A stretch of 24,180 nucleotides of DNA from a virus, in the IMG/VR virus record IMGVR_UViG_3300048592_000387, positions 1 to 24,180 of that record; one strand, 5' to 3'. Below are positions 10,895 through 22,108 of the stretch, one piece after another. A program made the position numbers and the translations under genes. The notes beneath the pieces were generated by a model. That model saw only the letters and a program-made list of their open reading frames with translations, had not been told where the DNA came from and did no database searches. Numbering within the stretch: the first letter of the stretch is position 1; each line of letters starts with the position of its first letter.

Positions 10895-11557
10895 CTAGTC
10901 GGCCGCTATAGCTTCATTGAGCGGCTTATCCTCTACGGTGTAGATAAGCGGTAGGCTAACCACTGTCACCGCCGCCTTATAAAGAATCTGCCCCGAAGCA
11001 ATCCGAGTGATGGCCTGTCCGAATGGCATACTCTCCGCGCCGAACAGCGGCGGGAGCAACACGAACGCCAGCGCCGTAAAGACGATGGAATCAACCGGCA
11101 GGCTAACGAAGTTGGAAGCGACAACCCGCGACCACTGGGGCGCACGCGGGAAGCGCGTTTTCCAGAAGTGATACACCTCCGTATCGGTCAGCTCGCTACA
11201 GAGTTCGGCCACGATGGAGCCGATAGTGATAGCGGGAACGATGGCAAAGATTGCCGACCACGCATCGCCCAGCGCAAAGAAGTCCGGCGACGGTAGGCGC
11301 GAGATGATGAACAGGTAGACGGCCAGAAGGACGTTAAGGACGGCCGCGGCGAAGACGGCCGTCCTTGCCCACTCGCGGCCGAGCCTCTTGTGGATCATGT
11401 CGCGCAGGGTGAAGGTCAGGGCGAAGATGAACGTCCCGCCCGGCATGACAACGCCGCCTATCTCTACCAGCTTAGTAGCTCCTACGTCGGCTATGGCCTG
11501 GGCCATAACGTAGGTTCCGATGAGAAGTACAATCACCCGAATGGTTTGTTTTGGCAT
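10895..11557 (-). CDS. yhhQ: Queuosine precursor transporter, YhhQ/QPTR (VUT) family
   Basis: A 220-residue membrane protein with about six hydrophobic spans (for example IRVIVLLIGTYVMAQAIADV, AVFAAAVLNVLLAVYLFIIS and DSIVFTALAFVLLPPLFGAE). It has the family hallmark FTLRDMIHKRLGRE between spans 2 and 3, and later SNFVSLPVDSIVF and SGQILYKAAVTV. YhhQ proteins import preQ0/preQ1, the 7-deazaguanine bases. GGAG lies five bases before its ATG, inside the queC 3' end, so expression is coupled. In a phage, a transporter next to queC, queF and a transglycosylase suggests topping up the precursor pool of the infected cell for DNA modification. Confidence 0.88.
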   Translation of the reverse strand: MPKQTIRVIVLLIGTYVMAQAIADVGATKLVEIGGVVMPGGTFIFALTFTLRDMIHKRLGREWARTAVFAAAVLNVLLAVYLFIISRLPSPDFFALGDAWSAIFAIVPAITIGSIVAELCSELTDTEVYHFWKTRFPRAPQWSRVVASNFVSLPVDSIVFTALAFVLLPPLFGAESMPFGQAITRIASGQILYKAAVTVVSLPLIYTVEDKPLNEAIAAD

Positions 11558-11559
11558 GG

Positions 11560-12231
11560 TTACTCCGACATGTATCCTGTGGGGTCTACTACCCCCGCCA
11601 ACTTAAATGCCTCGCGCCGCTCGACGCAAGTCCCGCACACGCCACAATGAGCGTCGCCGCCTTTGTAGCAGCTCCATGTATCCGCGTAAGGGACGAATAG
11701 CGCCGCGCCGAGCGCCACTATCTCGGCCTTACTCATGTGGACGAATGGTGCATAAAGGTGTAACCCGTCGGCCGCGTAGCCGTCCGTGGCGAAGCGCTCC
11801 ATACGGTCAAACGCCTCAATAAACTCCGGCCGGCAATCAGGGTAAATAGGATGGTCGCCCGCATGGACGCCGGTTGCCACCAATGACGCGCCTTCAGCCA
11901 CGGCAGCGGCATAGGCGATGACCAGCATGATCGCGTTCCGGTTAGGGACGACAGTGAGGCGCATATTCGGCGCAGCGTAGTGGCCTTCTGGAATAGCAAT
12001 ATCGTCTGTCAGTGCCGAGCCGGCCAAGAGCGGCGTTAATGATGACAGGTCTATGATGTCGTGCTGCGCCGATAGAGCACCGGCGCACTTAGCCGCATAC
12101 CCTAATTCCTGCTTGTGCCGCTGGCCGTAGTCGAATGACAACAGGTGAAGGGTGTGTCCTTGCGCCGCCAGCTGATAGGCCAGCGTGACGCTATCCAGCC
12201 CGCCGCTTAGCAGCGCGATAGCCTTACTCAT
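11560..12231 (-). CDS. queC: 7-cyano-7-deazaguanine (preQ0) synthase QueC
   Basis: A 223-residue enzyme that converts 7-carboxy-7-deazaguanine to preQ0 with ATP and ammonia. The PP-loop SGGLDS is at residues 9-14; LSFDYGQRHKQEL and VVPNRNAIMLVIAYA are family blocks. The C-terminal zinc site is intact: Cys188, Cys196, Cys199 and Cys202 in CYKGGDAHCGVCGTC. Length is that of cellular QueC. The ATG at 12231 has GAGG six bases upstream and overlaps queF by 8 bp. QueD and QueE are not in the window, so its substrate must come from the host or from genes elsewhere on the phage. Confidence 0.95.
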   Translation of the reverse strand: MSKAIALLSGGLDSVTLAYQLAAQGHTLHLLSFDYGQRHKQELGYAAKCAGALSAQHDIIDLSSLTPLLAGSALTDDIAIPEGHYAAPNMRLTVVPNRNAIMLVIAYAAAVAEGASLVATGVHAGDHPIYPDCRPEFIEAFDRMERFATDGYAADGLHLYAPFVHMSKAEIVALGAALFVPYADTWSCYKGGDAHCGVCGTCVERREAFKLAGVVDPTGYMSE

Positions 12232-12601
12232 TATCTGCCTCGGCCGTTACTGTCAGTTGTAACCCGCCGCGCACCTGCTGAGTAAGGGTTACTCGAATAC
12301 GGGCCGGAGAAAGCACCCTGTCAATATCGGCCATGATTTCAGCGGCTAGTGATTCCGCAAACTGCGCCGTATCTCTAAAGGTTTGGAGATAGAGTTTGAG
12401 GCTTTTCGATTCAACGCATAACAGGCGAGGCGAGTATTCAACCTCGATGTGGTAAAAGTCGGGTTGGTTGGTAACAGGGCAATGGGACGTAAGCTCACCG
12501 CTTGAAAACGTCACCGATTGCACAGAGGGCGCGGGGAACGTGTCTAGTGCTTTCGTTGGCGCGGAGTTGGGGCGACCTAAGTAGTTAAATTGCTGGCTCA
12601 T
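12224..12601 (-). CDS. queF: NADPH-dependent preQ0 reductase QueF (type I size), atypical His site
   Basis: A 125-residue protein of the unimodular QueF type, which reduces the preQ0 nitrile to the aminomethyl of preQ1. Visible: catalytic Cys41 and Asp48 in SHCPVTNQPDF, and the NADPH/substrate motif ESKSLKLY at 64-71. Glu83 corresponds to Glu97 of the Bacillus subtilis enzyme. The residue before it is Ala82 where the family usually has His (FAE instead of FHE). The start at 12601 is chosen because GGAG lies seven bases upstream and it begins MSQQFNYLGR like family members; the frame is open further upstream. It overlaps the upstream gene by 17 bp. The likely product is preQ1 for DNA insertion, assuming the enzyme is active. 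Confidence 0.9.
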   Translation of the reverse strand: MSQQFNYLGRPNSAPTKALDTFPAPSVQSVTFSSGELTSHCPVTNQPDFYHIEVEYSPRLLCVESKSLKLYLQTFRDTAQFAESLAAEIMADIDRVLSPARIRVTLTQQVRGGLQLTVTAEADNE

Positions 12602-13826
12602 TCTCTTGCTCCGATACAGCCGACCCCGCATACAGTTCGTTGACGGCCGCGCCCATAAACCCGAAAGAAAGAGCGAGCGCGGCATAGCGAACGTTGTTTA
12701 ACCTAGGGACATGTGGCAGCGATTCACGAATCGCTGCCACATGTCCCTGCGGGTCGCAATACTGGCCCCAGCGCGAGGCGACTAACTCGACGCTGTTATT
12801 GTCCAGACTTACAACGTCATCGCCTAGCGCGGCAAGATACTCCAATTGCTTCTTCCAACTTCCTCCCAACAAGTGGACGCGCCGCCCGCGGAACACGTCA
12901 ACAGATAGCGGTGTTCCGCCGTGCGAAGTGGGGACGGAGTACCCTAGCATAAACTTGGCGGGGATACGGTCAACGCAATCATACTTGGGGATGACAATCA
13001 CGTTCTGCGCGTGGGCAGATAGCTCCTCAGCCCAATCGAGCACTTGCTCTAGCGGGTAGTACTCAATACCGGCCGCCGCGCATTGATTAGGCGTCATAAT
13101 ATCGCGTACTGTAGCGTAGCGCGGGCGGAACTTTTCGACTGCTGCTAAGTGAACAGCATGATCGTATTTTGAGTATTCGTTATCTATAAACGCCACTTCG
13201 TGACGCCCGGTCAATTCGTAGGTGTAGGGGCATAGCCGGTAGTGGGCGCTGTTGATGCCATACTTCAGCCCTGCCTGAACGGCGAGGCAGCAGGTACAGT
13301 CGGCCATCTGTAGAGTATAGATAACGTCTATAGGCAACTGGCGGGGATTGGGCCTGGCTCCTTTCTCTACGCCTGAATCGAATTGCGATTCGTTCATCGC
13401 CTCCAACTCAAACGGCTGCCACCAGTCCGACAAGTCTACCCCGGCGGCTAAGTCCAGTTGAATCACGGCCGGGTCGAAGTCGAGCGACACCTGCCCGGCG
13501 CGGTTGTCGGCGTAGGCCAGTTCTCGCGCCTGTCCTGTGGGGTCATCTAAGTCTAGGTCTTCGCGCATCACGGCGACCAGCCTATCGCCCCGCGTGCGAA
13601 CAATCAGCACGTCGTCTAGCCCGATGTCGGCGGCGCTCTCCAGCGTCTTGTTGCCGGCGATCACCTTGCCGTTCTTGTCCAAGAGAATAGACCGCCCCGC
13701 CCCGAGCTTCTGTAGAGACTGGCGTATCATGTAAGCGCCGCGTTCGGTTCCCCTGTTGGCGTTGCGTTCGTCGGGTTGCAAGTCTGATAGTTTGATGGTT
13801 TCGTTCATAATGGGTTTTTGTTTCAT
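12585..13826 (-). CDS. ParB-like domain fused to probable 7-deazaguanine DNA transglycosylase (DpdA type)
   Basis: A 413-residue two-part protein. Residues about 7-140 form a ParB/Srx-like domain: IKLSDLQPDERNANRG, then NGKVIAGNKTLESAADIG, and AYADNRAGQVSLDF. Residues about 160-400 carry VAFIDNEYSKYDHAVHLAAV, RPRYATVRDIMTPNQC, NVIVIPKYDCVDRIPAKFML, GRRVHLLGGSWKKQLEYL and DDVVSLDNNSVELVA. This looks like an alpha/beta-barrel TGT-like enzyme of the phage DpdA group (related proteins, as I recall, are filed under DUF6610), which swaps guanine for a 7-deazaguanine in DNA. It heads the queF-queC-yhhQ operon. The start is either ATG 13826, with almost no leader, or ATG 13808. A palindrome lies at residues 360-374. 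The function call is inference from context and remembered patterns. Confidence 0.68.
   Translation of the reverse strand: MKQKPIMNETIKLSDLQPDERNANRGTERGAYMIRQSLQKLGAGRSILLDKNGKVIAGNKTLESAADIGLDDVLIVRTRGDRLVAVMREDLDLDDPTGQARELAYADNRAGQVSLDFDPAVIQLDLAAGVDLSDWWQPFELEAMNESQFDSGVEKGARPNPRQLPIDVIYTLQMADCTCCLAVQAGLKYGINSAHYRLCPYTYELTGRHEVAFIDNEYSKYDHAVHLAAVEKFRPRYATVRDIMTPNQCAAAGIEYYPLEQVLDWAEELSAHAQNVIVIPKYDCVDRIPAKFMLGYSVPTSHGGTPLSVDVFRGRRVHLLGGSWKKQLEYLAALGDDVVSLDNNSVELVASRWGQYCDPQGHVAAIRESLPHVPRLNNVRYAALALSFGFMGAAVNELYAGSAVSEQENEPAI
12705..12748. repeat. 44-bp near-perfect palindrome (21-bp arms, 2-base centre)
   Basis: The left arm 12705-12725 begins AGGGACATGTGGCAGC. Its exact reverse complement is the right arm 12728-12748, with only AC between them. 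It lies wholly inside the transglycosylase coding frame (residues 360-374) about 100 bp before the queF start. In RNA it would make a hairpin of about 20 bp. Confidence 0.9.
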
Positions 13827-14362: not shown

Positions 14363-15736
14363 GTGCAATACGACGAATTTATCACAAATAAGGCGCAATT
14401 AGGAGGCCGGTATGGATTTGAGCCTATACACATGCCGTCTTACCTGTTCCCTTTTCAGGCCGCTCTAGTCGAGTGGGCAGTGCGCAAGGGACGCGCTGCC
14501 GTCTTTGCCGATTGTGGCATGGGCAAGACGTTGATCGAGATGGTATGGGCGCAAAACGTCGCCCGGCAGACCGGCAAGCCAGTCATCATCCTGACTCCGT
14601 TGGCCGTTGCCCCGCAGTTCATCCGCGAAGCTGAGCGCTTTGGCATCGACGCCGCGCGGTCACATCGGGGAGAGATAGCCGCCGAGATAGTCATCACGAA
14701 CTACGAGCGGTTGCACCTGTTTGACGCTGACCGCTTTGGCGGCGTCGTCTGTGATGAGTCTAGCATCCTCAAGAGTTTCGACGGCGTGCGCCGCAATGAG
14801 ATAACCGAATTCATGCGTCGCAAGGAATACCGTCTACTCGGCACGGCCACAGCCGCCCCAAACGACTACACCGAACTCGGAACGTCCTCGGAGGCTCTTG
14901 GCTATCTGGGCTACATGGACATGCTAGGCCGTTTCTTCACCAACAAGAAACGCACGGCTCGGCAGATGCGCGGGCGCTGGCGCGACGATGAGGACGGATG
15001 GCGCTTCAAGGGCCACGCCGAGCAACAATTCTGGCGGTGGGTCGCATCATGGGCGCGCGCCTTGCGTAAGCCGTCCGATCTAGGCTTTGCCGATGACGGC
15101 TTTAACTTGCCGCCGCTGCTCATTCAGAAGCATATCGTATCCGCCCGCGCCCCGCGCCCCGGTATGCTTTTCACCTTGCCGGCCATCGGTCTCCAGGAGC
15201 AGCGCGAAGAGCGGCGGCGCACTATCCGCGAGCGCTGCGAGATGGTTGCCGAATTGGTCAACCACACCGGGCAATCCGCCGTCGTGTGGTGTCACATGAA
15301 TGATGAGGGCGACATGCTACAGCGCCTCATCCCCGACGCCGAACAGGTTAGCGGCAAAGACGACGATGACGACAAAGAAGCCAAGTTCGGCCGGTTCTCG
15401 GACGGGCAAACCCGCGTCATTGTGACGAAACCCAAGATCGGCGCGTGGGGGTTGAACTGGCAGCATTGTCATCATCTGACGTTCTTCCCGTCCCACTCCT
15501 ACGAACAATACTACCAGGCCGTCCGCCGTTGCTGGCGATTCGGCCAACAATGCCCCGTCACGGTTGACATCGTATCAACCGAAGGTGAGGTAGAAGTCCA
15601 AAACAGCCTACAGCGCAAGGCGGACGCCGCCGCGCAGATGTTTACCGAACTCGTCGCCCACATGAACGACAGTATTTCTATTGACCGTTCCCAGTCATAT
15701 ACCGCCCCTATGGAGGTTCCCCAATGGCTATCCTAG
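14363..15736 (+). CDS. SNF2-type DEAD/DEAH-box helicase/ATPase
   Basis: A 457-residue superfamily 2 ATPase. Motif I is ADCGMGKT (residues 49-56), motif Ia IILTPLAVAPQF, motif II DESS (131-134) and motif III LLGTATAAPND. The C-terminal lobe ends with motifs V/VI, VIVTKPKIGAWGLNWQ and YQAVRRCWRFGQ. An acidic run (GKDDDDDKEAKFG) lies in the second lobe. Start is GTG at 14363 with TGAGG upstream. It overlaps the methyltransferase gene by 13 bp, so the two are co-expressed. It probably remodels or translocates on DNA during replication or together with the methyltransferase. No nuclease domain is seen. Confidence 0.88.
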   Translation: MQYDEFITNKAQLGGRYGFEPIHMPSYLFPFQAALVEWAVRKGRAAVFADCGMGKTLIEMVWAQNVARQTGKPVIILTPLAVAPQFIREAERFGIDAARSHRGEIAAEIVITNYERLHLFDADRFGGVVCDESSILKSFDGVRRNEITEFMRRKEYRLLGTATAAPNDYTELGTSSEALGYLGYMDMLGRFFTNKKRTARQMRGRWRDDEDGWRFKGHAEQQFWRWVASWARALRKPSDLGFADDGFNLPPLLIQKHIVSARAPRPGMLFTLPAIGLQEQREERRRTIRERCEMVAELVNHTGQSAVVWCHMNDEGDMLQRLIPDAEQVSGKDDDDDKEAKFGRFSDGQTRVIVTKPKIGAWGLNWQHCHHLTFFPSHSYEQYYQAVRRCWRFGQQCPVTVDIVSTEGEVEVQNSLQRKADAAAQMFTELVAHMNDSISIDRSQSYTAPMEVPQWLS

Positions 15737-16728
15737 ACCAGATGATTACCGACCGTTACGCGCTCTACTGTGGCGACTGCATGGAAGTCATGCCCAATTT
15801 GCCCGATGGCGCGATTCATTTCTCCGTCTATTCGCCGCCCTTCGCCGGCCTTTACCAGTACAGCAGTAGCGAGCATGACCTGAGTAATAGCCGCGACTAT
15901 GGTGAATTCATGACACACTATGAGTACGTCATCCGCGAGATCCACCGCCTGACCATGCCCGGCCGTATGACCGCCGTTCACTGCATGGACGTGCCGCGCT
16001 CCAATAACGGCCGGTCGGACTCCTTTATGGACTTCCCCGGCGACATCATTCGTTTGCATGAGCGCAACGGGTGGAGCTACACCGCCCGCTATCACGTCTG
16101 GAAAGAGCCGTTGACCGTCCGCAATCGGACGATGAAGAAAGGGTTGGCCCATCAGACCATTGTCGAGGATTCGAGCCGGTGCAGCGTGGCCGCGGCCGAT
16201 TATCTGCTTGTCTTTCGTCGAGACGGTGACAACCCCGTGCCCGTCGCCCACCCCGCCGGACTCAAGTCCTATGCCGGTTCCCGTCAAATGCCCGCCGATG
16301 TCCTCAAATACAAGGACTGGAATGGCCCTCAGATTGAGAACCGTTTCAGTCATTGGATATGGCGGCAGTACGCCTCAGCGTTTTGGGACGACGTGCGGCT
16401 TGACCGCGTTTTGCCCTTCCGTGAATCCCGCGACGAAGAGGACGAGAAGCACGTCCACCCGTTGCAATTAGACGTCATCGAGCGAGCCGTGGTCTTGTGG
16501 AGTAATCCTGGCGACCGCATTCTGACCCCTTTCATGGGCGTCGGCTCTGAGGTTTACGTGCCGGTGCAGTTGAATCGGTTCGGTCTCGGCATCGAACTAA
16601 AGCCAAGCTACTACCGGCAGGCGGTTAAAAACATGGCCGCTGTCGACGAAGACCAATACAACGACATGCCCCTATTCAGCCAGCCCGTCACAGAAGACGA
16701 AGAGGAGTTTGGGCTAGAGATAGCCTAA
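15724..16728 (+). CDS. DNA methyltransferase, beta-class N4/N6 type (SPPF motif)
   Basis: A 334-residue DNA methyltransferase with motif order IV before I. The catalytic motif SPPF is at residues 37-40 (SVYSPPFAGLYQY). The S-adenosylmethionine motif lies near residues 268-290 (RILTPFMGVGSEVYVPV, FGLGIELKPSYYRQAV). The Ser at the first position of SPPF points to N4-cytosine, though N6-adenine activity cannot be excluded. A long central region would hold the target recognition part. GGAGG precedes the ATG. Partnered with the SNF2 helicase and with no restriction nuclease in sight, it is probably an orphan enzyme that protects phage DNA. Target sequence unknown. Confidence 0.88.
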   Translation: MAILDQMITDRYALYCGDCMEVMPNLPDGAIHFSVYSPPFAGLYQYSSSEHDLSNSRDYGEFMTHYEYVIREIHRLTMPGRMTAVHCMDVPRSNNGRSDSFMDFPGDIIRLHERNGWSYTARYHVWKEPLTVRNRTMKKGLAHQTIVEDSSRCSVAAADYLLVFRRDGDNPVPVAHPAGLKSYAGSRQMPADVLKYKDWNGPQIENRFSHWIWRQYASAFWDDVRLDRVLPFRESRDEEDEKHVHPLQLDVIERAVVLWSNPGDRILTPFMGVGSEVYVPVQLNRFGLGIELKPSYYRQAVKNMAAVDEDQYNDMPLFSQPVTEDEEEFGLEIA

Positions 16729-19447: not shown

Positions 19448-19842
19448 CCACTTCCCCCACCCCACCCCATGACCTACGCTCCAATGACGACGCCGGCATC
19501 GCCGGGACGATTCACGAATGCGACCCGGCGGCCGTCGCCCGGCTCAAGGCGCTCATGGCTCAACAGCAGCCGCCGCGCTGGCAAGAGGCGCGACGACGCC
19601 AGTACAACGGCAGTCAGATTGTCGCCAATTTGCAACGCAGTGCCATTACCCACGCCGACCGCGTGCGGCTCGTCCTGAGTGACGAACAAATGACCGATGT
19701 CGAGCAACGCCGCGCCAATGGCGAGACGTGGGCCGGTATCGCCCGCGCTATGGGCTTAGTCCATACAACCCTCATGCTGGCCTACGCCCGGCAGACGCAC
19801 GCCGGGCAGCAGGCCGCCAAACAACAGGAGAAACCGCAATGA
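19444..19842 (+). CDS. Hypothetical protein with possible helix-turn-helix
   Basis: A 132-residue protein with a Pro-rich, probably disordered N-terminus and a charged Gln/Arg region (MAQQQPPRWQEARRRQYNGS). The second half has LVLSDEQMTDVEQRRANGET followed by WAGIARAMGLVHTTLMLAYA, a helix-turn-helix-like pattern with 'GETWAGIARAMGL' resembling resolvase/sigma-type DNA-binding helices. It overlaps dnaB in ATGA and the methyltransferase start in ATGA, so it is fully coupled. It could regulate DNA or act with the helicase; no family is claimed. Confidence 0.6.
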   Translation: MTTSPTPPHDLRSNDDAGIAGTIHECDPAAVARLKALMAQQQPPRWQEARRRQYNGSQIVANLQRSAITHADRVRLVLSDEQMTDVEQRRANGETWAGIARAMGLVHTTLMLAYARQTHAGQQAAKQQEKPQ

Positions 19843-20654
19843 GTAACCAACCGTTGCGCTATCTGTCGCTATTCAGCGGCATCGGCGGGATGGATTTAGG
19901 ATTTGATAGGGCCGGAATGGTGTGCGCCGGGCAGGTAGAGATAGATGACTATTGCCGCCGCGTGCTGGCGCGGCACTGGCCGGACGTGCCGCGCATGAAT
20001 GATGTGAGAGAGGTGCATGGTGACGAGTTTGGAGCAGTTGACCTTATTTGCGGCGGATTCCCTTGCCAGCCTCACAGTGTTGCCGGGCAGCAACGCGGCG
20101 CGGCAGATGACCGCAACCTCTGGCCGGAAATGCGCCGCCTTGTTGCCGCCATCCGGCCCGCTTGGGTTGTTGGTGAAAATGTGCCTGGAATCCGATCAAC
20201 TATCCTCGACGAGGTGGTATCTGACCTGGAAGGCAAAGACTACGAAGTCGGGATACTTGATTTTCCAGCTTGCGGCCTCCAGGCGTGGCACATCCGCGCC
20301 CGGATATACATCATCGCCTACCTACCCCACAGTCGCCGCGTCGGACTGGAAGGGGCGCAGCGGCAAGGGGCACATTGCCCGGCACGGCAACAAGAGGCTT
20401 TCGGACGCCATCTGCTATCCGACCGTGACGGCATCGGACGCGAGCGGTGGGCCGGGCAGCCAGGGGAGAGCGGGCGGCGACAACCTGAGGACCGTGATTG
20501 GTGGGCAGCTGAACCCGGAGTGGGTCGAGTGGTTCATGGGCTTCCCCATCGGATGGACAGAATTAAAGGACTAGGCAATGCCGTTGTCCCACAAGTTGCC
20601 GAGTGGCTGGGGCGGCACATCGTGGCCGCTGAAATGGAGGTAAACCCGCAATGA
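19839..20654 (+). CDS. C5-cytosine DNA methyltransferase
   Basis: A 271-residue Dcm-type enzyme, short for the family because the target recognition region is small. Motif I is SLFSGIGGMDLGF (10-22). Motif IV GGFPCQPHS has the catalytic Cys76. Motif VI ENV is at 113-115, motif VIII RARIYIIA at 153-160, and motifs IX/X include GLGNAVVPQVAEWLGRHI near 244-261. It methylates cytosine C5 in a specific DNA site (unknown), protecting from restriction. The ATG at 19839 is chosen for its ATGA overlap with the previous stop and AGGAG upstream. No endonuclease is adjacent. Over 550 bp of the gene is also open in the +1 frame (separate entry). Confidence 0.92.
   Translation: MSNQPLRYLSLFSGIGGMDLGFDRAGMVCAGQVEIDDYCRRVLARHWPDVPRMNDVREVHGDEFGAVDLICGGFPCQPHSVAGQQRGAADDRNLWPEMRRLVAAIRPAWVVGENVPGIRSTILDEVVSDLEGKDYEVGILDFPACGLQAWHIRARIYIIAYLPHSRRVGLEGAQRQGAHCPARQQEAFGRHLLSDRDGIGRERWAGQPGESGRRQPEDRDWWAAEPGVGRVVHGLPHRMDRIKGLGNAVVPQVAEWLGRHIVAAEMEVNPQ
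20017..20574 (+). CDS. Overprinted ORF within the cytosine methyltransferase gene (+1 frame)
   Basis: A 185-codon frame lies entirely inside the methyltransferase gene, offset +1. Its product contains LTVLPGSNAARQMTATSGRK, PPSGPLGLLVKMCLESDQLS, STRWYLTWKAKTTKSGYLIF and ends QLNPEWVEWFMGFPIGWTEL. From memory, this arrangement (PGS..AR.MT.TSGRK, LTWK, YPT.TASD, LNP.WVEWLMGFP.GWT) recurs in many phage and metagenome proteins, so it looks like a real family rather than chance. AGAGG lies upstream of ATG 20017 and is better spaced for GTG 20020. Its function is unknown, and the call needs conservation tests. Confidence 0.5.
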   Translation: MVTSLEQLTLFAADSLASLTVLPGSNAARQMTATSGRKCAALLPPSGPLGLLVKMCLESDQLSSTRWYLTWKAKTTKSGYLIFQLAASRRGTSAPGYTSSPTYPTVAASDWKGRSGKGHIARHGNKRLSDAICYPTVTASDASGGPGSQGRAGGDNLRTVIGGQLNPEWVEWFMGFPIGWTELKD

Positions 20655-20815: not shown

Positions 20816-21062
20816 GACACGACCCGTCTACCACGCCGACCTAGCCGCCCTGGCGACCGAACGTCGCCGGGCGCTCGTCTACGCCGCGCTCAACGACGCG
20901 GGCGCGGCTGAGGCCGGGCTATTGCGCCTCGTGGCTGAGGTTGCCCGGCTGCGCGACCTCTTGGCACTGGGCACGCTAGACGACGATGCGCTCTACGCCG
21001 TGCGGCGGCAGTTGGGCGACTACCGGCAGTGCGCTGAGGCGTTGGGGGTGAATCTGCCGTGA
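20808..21062 (+). CDS. Hypothetical helical protein
   Basis: An 84-residue protein starting MTETRPVYHADLAALATERR, almost wholly helical with heptad-like Leu/Ala (LLRLVAEVARLRDLLALGTL, LYAVRRQLGDYRQCAEALGV). The start at 20808 is chosen because GGTGA is suitably spaced; ATG codons at 20793 and 20796 sit too close to their GAGG. It shares GTGA with the next methyltransferase. Possibly a small coiled-coil adaptor; I do not recognise it. Confidence 0.55.
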   Translation: MTETRPVYHADLAALATERRRALVYAALNDAGAAEAGLLRLVAEVARLRDLLALGTLDDDALYAVRRQLGDYRQCAEALGVNLP

Positions 21063-21865
21063 ATAACTGGCGCATAGAGACGGGCGACGCTTTGCGGCTT
21101 ATCCCGTCACTTGAGGGCGGCGCGGTTAACCTTGTCGTTACGTCGCCGCCCTACCCCGGCCAGATGGGCAACGGGCAAACGGTAGGCACGTGGCTGGAAT
21201 GGCTAACCGCTATCACCGCCGCGCTGCTGCCCAAGTTGGCCCCGGCGGCCGTCGTGGCTCTTAACGTGACATTCAAGCGCACCGACGCGGGATGGTTTGA
21301 CACTCGTCTTTTTACCGCCATTCCCGCTATCCTGGAGGCTGCCGGGCTGCGCTGCCATGACACCTACATTTGGCACAAGACGAACGGAGCGCAAAACGGG
21401 CCACTGGCCTATGCCGACGCGCCCGGCTATGAGGTCGTCTACGCTTATACCAATGCCGAGCGGCCCGGTAACGTGACGTTCAATCCTCAGCGCAAGCCCT
21501 ACGCCGCCAAGAGCATCAGCAGCAGCGGTGCGGCCCGCATCGGCTACGGGCGCACGAAAGAACCAAACGGCGACGGGGCGCGGCAAACGAACGTCCTAAG
21601 CCTCGCCACGCACGCCAGTGACGGCAACCGGCCGCGGGCGCGGGGCGTGTCATTCCCGCTGGAATTGCCGCGCCGATTCATCCGGCAGTACACCCGCCCC
21701 GGCGATCTGGTACTGGACTTCTGCGCGGGCGTCGGGACAACCGGCCGCGCCGCGCTGGAATTGGGACGGCGATTCATCGGCTTCGAGCTTGACGCAGAAG
21801 AAGCCGAACGGGCGCGGCAGTGGCTGGCCGCCGCGCCGACGCCACTATTGTCAGTAACGGAGTAA
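21059..21865 (+). CDS. DNA methyltransferase, SPPY type (probable N4-cytosine)
   Basis: A 268-residue methyltransferase with catalytic SPPY at residues 29-32 (VVTSPPYPGQMGNG) and SAM motif I near 219-245 (LDFCAGVGTTGRAALELG, RRFIGFELDAEEAERA), the beta-class order. SPPY is typical of N4-cytosine enzymes. A middle region includes YIWHKTNGAQNGPLAYADAP and the target recognition part. The GTG start overlaps the prior stop in GTGA. It is the third methyltransferase in the window, with no cognate nuclease nearby, suggesting anti-restriction use. Target unknown. Confidence 0.88.
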   Translation: MNNWRIETGDALRLIPSLEGGAVNLVVTSPPYPGQMGNGQTVGTWLEWLTAITAALLPKLAPAAVVALNVTFKRTDAGWFDTRLFTAIPAILEAAGLRCHDTYIWHKTNGAQNGPLAYADAPGYEVVYAYTNAERPGNVTFNPQRKPYAAKSISSSGAARIGYGRTKEPNGDGARQTNVLSLATHASDGNRPRARGVSFPLELPRRFIRQYTRPGDLVLDFCAGVGTTGRAALELGRRFIGFELDAEEAERARQWLAAAPTPLLSVTE

Positions 21866-21868
21866 CCC

Positions 21869-22108
21869 ATGAGCAAGACGATTGACTTCCCCGACCTTGA
21901 CGCCGCCATCGACGCCGAGGCGTGGCAGTGGCTACAGGAGGCCGCGCCCGTCTACGCCGATGCGGTCACAGCCGAGGTGCGACGCGGCCACGAGCCGGGC
22001 GACATCCGGCGGCGATTCATGCGCCTGACGCAACGCCCCGCGTTGGCCCTGAGGCTAGAGCAAGCCGCTCGCCACTTGCGGCGGCAACGACAGGAGGCGG
22101 GGCAGTGA
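21869..22108 (+). CDS. Hypothetical small helical protein
   Basis: A 79-residue protein starting MSKTIDFPDLDAAIDAEAWQ, then WLQEAAPVYADAVTAEVRRG, a 'GHEPGDIRRRFMRLTQRPAL' part and a basic C-terminal helix (RLEQAARHLRRQRQEAGQ). The basic helix suggests nucleic-acid contact. It has GGAG upstream and overlaps the next gene in GTGA. No recognised family. Confidence 0.55.
   Translation: MSKTIDFPDLDAAIDAEAWQWLQEAAPVYADAVTAEVRRGHEPGDIRRRFMRLTQRPALALRLEQAARHLRRQRQEAGQ

Follow-up and report, generated by a model that had tools for sequence, protein, structure and literature searches.

A 44-bp palindrome in the coding sequence of a phage DUF6610 gene, probably written by a template-switch replication error

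The presence of a long palindrome inside a translated phage gene raises the question of how it came to be there, and whether it does anything besides encoding protein. The window analysed here is a metagenomic contig of 24,180 bases, taken in full from an IMG/VR virus record, and the locus in question comprises the following features.

12585..13826, minus strand: host gene of 413 aa, with a ParB-like N domain and DUF6610 (PF20314), a predicted TGT-like TIM barrel
12693..12746, minus strand: hypervariable loop between the conserved G361 and N377-N378, containing the palindrome
12705..12748, minus strand: palindrome of 44 bp, with perfect arms of 21 bp and a spacer of 2 nt
12728..12748, minus strand: 5' arm in the mRNA sense, AGGGACATGTGGCAGCGATTC, encoding (Q)GHVAAI
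12726..12727, minus strand: spacer of 2 nt, GT in the mRNA sense
12705..12725, minus strand: 3' arm in the mRNA sense, GAATCGCTGCCACATGTCCCT, encoding ESLPHVP

The palindrome is real and beyond chance. The preliminary description reported two exact 21-bp arms around a 2-base centre, and the arms (12705-12725 and 12728-12748) are indeed complementary at 21 of 21 positions. The chance origin that it judged very unlikely can be set aside: in 60 sequences simulated from the window under a first-order Markov model, the longest arms were 11 bp, which is also the arm length of the runner-up close-spaced stem in the window itself. About 1.0 Mb of nonredundant, mostly viral DNA contained a single other close-spaced stem of at least 17 bp (20 bp, at the locus L023). 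The palindrome lies wholly inside the open reading frame 12585-13826 (minus strand), in frame and in coding phase 1, and encodes residues 361-375, one above the 360-374 first given. In the mRNA sense, its 44 nt form a hairpin with a stem of 20 bp and a 4-nt loop (-38 kcal/mol), and the region around it has a folding z-score of -5.1. The window has no further copy beyond a weak half match to one arm at 22002 (22002-22018, 14/17, within another open reading frame). The 20-mer arm was absent from the viral contigs searched, the palindrome core had no match in the genome contigs, the contigs matching a 15-mer held no close-spaced stem with arms of at least 14 bp, and a search for close DNA relatives among phages and plasmids found none.

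We compared the host gene with 41 related loci, of which 40 come from viral contigs and one from a Chloroflexota assembly. In these relatives, DUF6610 is well conserved as far as SLDNN, and the loop that runs from PDG to NN(V/P)xY differs in sequence in nearly every one of them, and often in length. Counted from the conserved G to [NT]N, the loop has 15 residues in the window versus 13 in the nearest relatives, L099 (60% protein identity), L003/L004 (52%), and L005 (51%), whose loops have no palindrome. When aligned to a profile of the homologues built without the window, the left arm and the centre (GHVAAIRES) fit the family pattern, and the two extra residues fall inside the right arm. The distal residues of the right arm (PHVPR) are absent from the relatives and stand in place of family sequence; in an ancestor of the kind proposed below, family-like GxGY codons would stand where the window reads CCACATGTCCCT. 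This comparison suggests that the 5' arm is probably the original one, i.e., the template, and the 3' arm probably the copy. In the predicted structure, the left (5') arm is placed on the beta strand 363-365 and the start of a short helix, and the distal right arm in coil. Codon usage failed as a test of the direction of copying because both arms, and not just the copied one, use codons seldom found in this phage (1.7th and 3.6th percentile). Because the relatives' loops are only two codons shorter, the palindrome would have replaced sequence rather than been inserted whole and, as judged from these alignments, it is neither ancestral nor an added piece of 44 bp. The preliminary description took absence from relatives as the sign of an insertion; the palindrome is absent from them, yet their loop is almost equally long.

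Such a pattern resembles known replication errors. In quasipalindrome template switching, imperfect inverted repeats are perfected when one arm serves as the template for the other (PMC7202029). These mutations were first described in phage T4 (Ripley 1982, rII) and are also known in E. coli thyA (PMC7202029) and in yeast genes; an inverted spacer has been described as one of its signatures (PMC8604942, PMC8794818), and a single event can create a long stem (PMC8794818). We propose, with a probability of about two in three, that the coding palindrome was made by such a template switch. The proposal is based on the perfect arms, the preserved frame, the variability of the loop, the absence of the palindrome from relatives, the two additional codons, and the recurrence of unrelated palindromes in the same loop. 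The short spacer (2 nt) and the clustering of replaced residues in one arm (PHVPR in the loop alignment) are also those expected of this mechanism. The gene would initially have contained a short inverted repeat, in the mRNA sense approximately CGATTC-GT-GAATCG. The growing strand would have folded back on this repeat, and the resulting short hairpin would have primed copying; the polymerase would then have copied about 15 more bases of the 5' (left) arm before returning to its proper template. The outcome would be two perfect arms, with about 9-12 bases replaced and 6 added in frame (two codons), and the new residues would have landed in a loop that is free in sequence and length among relatives, so that the change was tolerated. 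Four elements of this account are inferred: that the ancestor had the short repeat, which arm was copied, that a switch took place, and that the hairpin has no selected function. L099, the nearest relative (60% amino acid identity), has codons at the site without the short repeat, and this divergence is too large to rebuild the ancestor; since no relative above 60% protein identity was found, the ancestral bases and the switch points cannot be reconstructed. Of the origins first suggested, the scar of a hairpin-forming insertion comes closest, as a mutational scar fits best, though one left by overwriting rather than by the insertion of an element.

The kind of event is already known, and the window would provide a new and clear phage instance. 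As in the quasipalindrome mutations of T4 rII and E. coli thyA, first found in a phage gene, one arm appears to have been perfected from the other, but most known cases are small corrections observed experimentally (PMC7202029), whereas the window has an arm of 21 bp in a natural phage gene whose ancestor is lacking. Yeast coding genes also show arm homogenisation and spacer inversion that alter several neighbouring residues; there, the events were inferred from close strains and span at most 5 residues (PMC8604942), whereas here the comparison is made across 50-60% identity and concerns about 5 residues and 2 added codons. The mitochondria of nematomorphs have perfect inverted repeats within translated genes, like the one translated in frame here; the long ones are mostly in phases 1 and 2, and they reappear at an unchanged location while their sequence differs (PMC6649704). 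They are, however, numerous per genome and lie in conserved protein regions, whereas the window has one, in a nonconserved loop of a phage gene. Among coding palindromes, phases 1 and 2 constrain the protein least, and phase 1 least of all (PMC6649704); 11 of the 12 in-frame palindromes that we examined are in one of these phases. Finally, template switching can give rise to RNA hairpins with a long perfect stem in one event (PMC8794818), in that case in functional RNA genes, whereas the palindrome of the window is without demonstrated function. If the template-switch reading is correct, the locus shows clearly, in a natural phage gene, how a single replication error can write several new residues at once. 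It also cautions against assuming without further evidence that a perfect hairpin in a coding sequence is regulatory.

The same loop has unrelated palindromes in other loci: L106 and L112 (arms of 12 bp) and L111 (10 bp). With the window, this makes four palindromes with arms of at least 10 bp in 4.5 kb of loops versus 0.25 expected (background of 0.054/kb); when the window is left out and L106/L112 are counted once, there are two versus about 0.24 expected. L106 and L112 have 61% protein identity and keep the codon at 81 of 195 shared residues (42%), but the hairpin's eight codons are identical throughout, compared with four codons in the second-longest such run, and the outer pair of the hairpin differs on both sides (G-C vs C-G). 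In this one pair of sequences, examined post hoc, the codon identity hints that some hairpins in the loop are preserved as DNA or RNA. The core of the L112 hairpin was found elsewhere only in L144, where its position is unrelated and no long open frame covers it. On the other hand, such palindromes are not necessarily useful, because the one in L151, a cellular copy of DUF6610, holds a stop codon: this 13/1 palindrome (arm/spacer, 1653-1679) carries an in-frame TAG and, stop read-through aside, is unlikely to be beneficial. It is absent from L149, an intact paralogue in the same genome that aligns without gaps over 643 bases; we dropped L151 for dating the palindrome, the two paralogues being only 58% identical in DNA.

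Palindromes are also found in the dpdA-like genes of L023, the phage contig with the queC nearest to that of the window, and of L141 and L142. The dpdA-like open reading frame of L023 has four, with arm/spacer lengths of 13/4, 15/1, 10/3, and 20/2. The last shares its core with a 10/2 palindrome of L142, with the spacer inverted (TC, GA) and with a left flank altered so that it matches the right. At the place of the 10/3 palindrome, L141 has a 13/0 palindrome in which several pairs are changed on both sides, which selection and arm-to-arm conversion explain equally well. Such concerted changes of both arms at one location are thus seen for L023/L141 and for the outer pair of L106/L112, but not for the palindrome of the window. 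The palindromes of these dpdA-like genes (L023:440-1565, L141:3767-3792, L142:1741-1762) are perfect, several per gene, and in frame in L023 and L141. We also observed that the C-terminal parts of the three proteins have a repeated peptide of the AGLRLHLADTSNGINYGDADKG type, and that the L023 gene differs from that of L141 by an N-terminal insertion containing two palindromes. In L142 (1450-1500), the frame is cut short close to where L023 and L141 have their hairpin, and the C-terminal repeats go on in another frame, which could be a frameshift, an error, or recoding. The HLAD peptide of these tails was rejected as an element common to the window, which has none, and a 75-aa stretch of it searched in phages gave nothing. 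Together, these loci hint that palindromes accumulate in the modification cassette of these phages. A broader reading is that, in this group of phages, the cassettes for 7-deazaguanine modification of DNA (DUF6610, dpdA, queF, queC, transporter) are sites at which coding palindromes, including the 44-bp one, are repeatedly made and kept perfect, through unusually frequent template switching or a function of the hairpins; we regard it as doubtful. Their recurrence in one loop and one cassette makes it possible to examine whether template switching befalls, or benefits, some phages more than others.

If the hairpin has a function in the window, it might concern the genes that follow.

12224..12601, minus strand: queF-like gene (PF14489), likely start at 12601, open reading frame extendable to 12685
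11560..12231, minus strand: queC (PF06508), closest to queC of L023 (81% amino acid identity)
10895..11557, minus strand: Vut_1 (PF02592) transporter, adjoining queC also in L023

The start of queF is likely the ATG at 12601, which has GGAGCAAGAGA just before it, rather than the longer start at 12685. From 12601, the protein has 125 aa, near the 130-132 aa of the queF-type genes of the phages Rinkes, Funsized, and Knocker, and the palindrome lies 104 nt upstream. If the operon mRNA contained an RNA hairpin kept by selection, one that slows ribosomes or is cut by RNase III, it could alter the expression of queF, queC, and the transporter. The stability of the stem, its position ahead of queF, and the exactly kept codons of L106/L112, with their outer pair swapped on both sides, are consistent with this idea. 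Yet a stem of this kind is missing from most of the homologous loops (35 distinct ones), a hairpin conserved across the whole DUF6610 family was looked for and not seen, and the site lacks it in the mycobacteriophages with the DUF6610-queF order. A scan for an intrinsic terminator (GC stem and T run) at the palindrome found no T run behind the stem, and the window has no Rfam match above the gathering score. Conservation lends no support to the functions put forward in the preliminary description, whether a hairpin that tunes queF, a target of RNase III, or a binding site for a protein, and we consider a selected RNA hairpin unlikely. Translational bypassing was set aside because the frame is open through the hairpin.

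The palindrome could also be an artefact of amplification or assembly, the window being a metagenomic contig. Sequencing coverage is known to suffer at long inverted repeats (PMC6649704), and L023 has an N gap 7 bases past its own 42-bp palindrome. In the window, however, the palindrome preserves the reading frame and is flanked immediately on either side by conserved sequence, whereas a fold-back chimera would run on in inverted sequence; moreover, palindromes in this loop come from independent samples. An artefact is therefore improbable. At the N gap of L023 (1573-1574), L142 is about 100 bases longer, consistent with palindromes disturbing assembly.

An element that jumped in frame into the gene would account for the perfect arms and the permissive loop, and the Rickettsia palindromic elements, hairpin-forming DNA translated in frame within genes, are a cited precedent (PMC6649704). 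But those are repeated insertions, and the window shows neither an insertion of that size nor a second copy: the homologous loops (L003, L005, L099) are 2 codons shorter and not 15, multiple related copies are found neither in the window nor in the viral and genome contigs searched, and the arms of the other palindromes are unrelated. Such an insertion is quite improbable. ParB proteins act on palindromic parS sites, which they recognise via a helix-turn-helix domain. A DNA site for a dimeric protein (e.g., the ParB-like domain of the gene's own product) or a replication or packaging signal is very improbable, as the palindrome is single-copy and absent in relatives with the same domain, its 21-bp arms far exceed usual operator half sites, and family searches matched no helix-turn-helix in the host protein.

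The host protein matches the DUF6610 family (PF20314) with 127 bits, and its N-terminal, ParB-like domain has PDB profile matches to Spo0J/Noc/ParB. In the AlphaFold2 model (mean pLDDT 83.9), DUF6610 is a TIM barrel. In the structural comparison, tRNA-guanine transglycosylases rank first (VIA-align Z 13.5, rmsd 4.2, 231 aligned), with PdxJ barrels close behind (13.2); the DpdA structure 7ui4 is among the Foldseek matches. The modelled fold makes kinship of DUF6610 to TGT likely, with PdxJ barrels scoring within 1. The name transglycosylase, used for this gene at the outset, is thus plausible on fold, whereas the sequence families give only ParB-N and DUF6610. The window has a cassette of ParB-DUF6610, queF, queC, and the Vut_1 transporter (10895-13826), the latter likely for the uptake of queuosine precursors. 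The mycobacteriophages Rinkes and Funsized have a DUF6610-type gene followed by a queF-type gene, dpdA, and queC, an order of which Knocker shares the first three genes. No separate dpdA was found among those proteins of the window that were searched, and the DUF6610 protein, given its predicted TGT-like barrel, may itself be the base-exchange enzyme of the cassette. The same phage also has three DNA methyltransferase genes (15724-16728, 19728-20654, and 21059-21865), two of the N6/N4 type and one of the C5 cytosine type.
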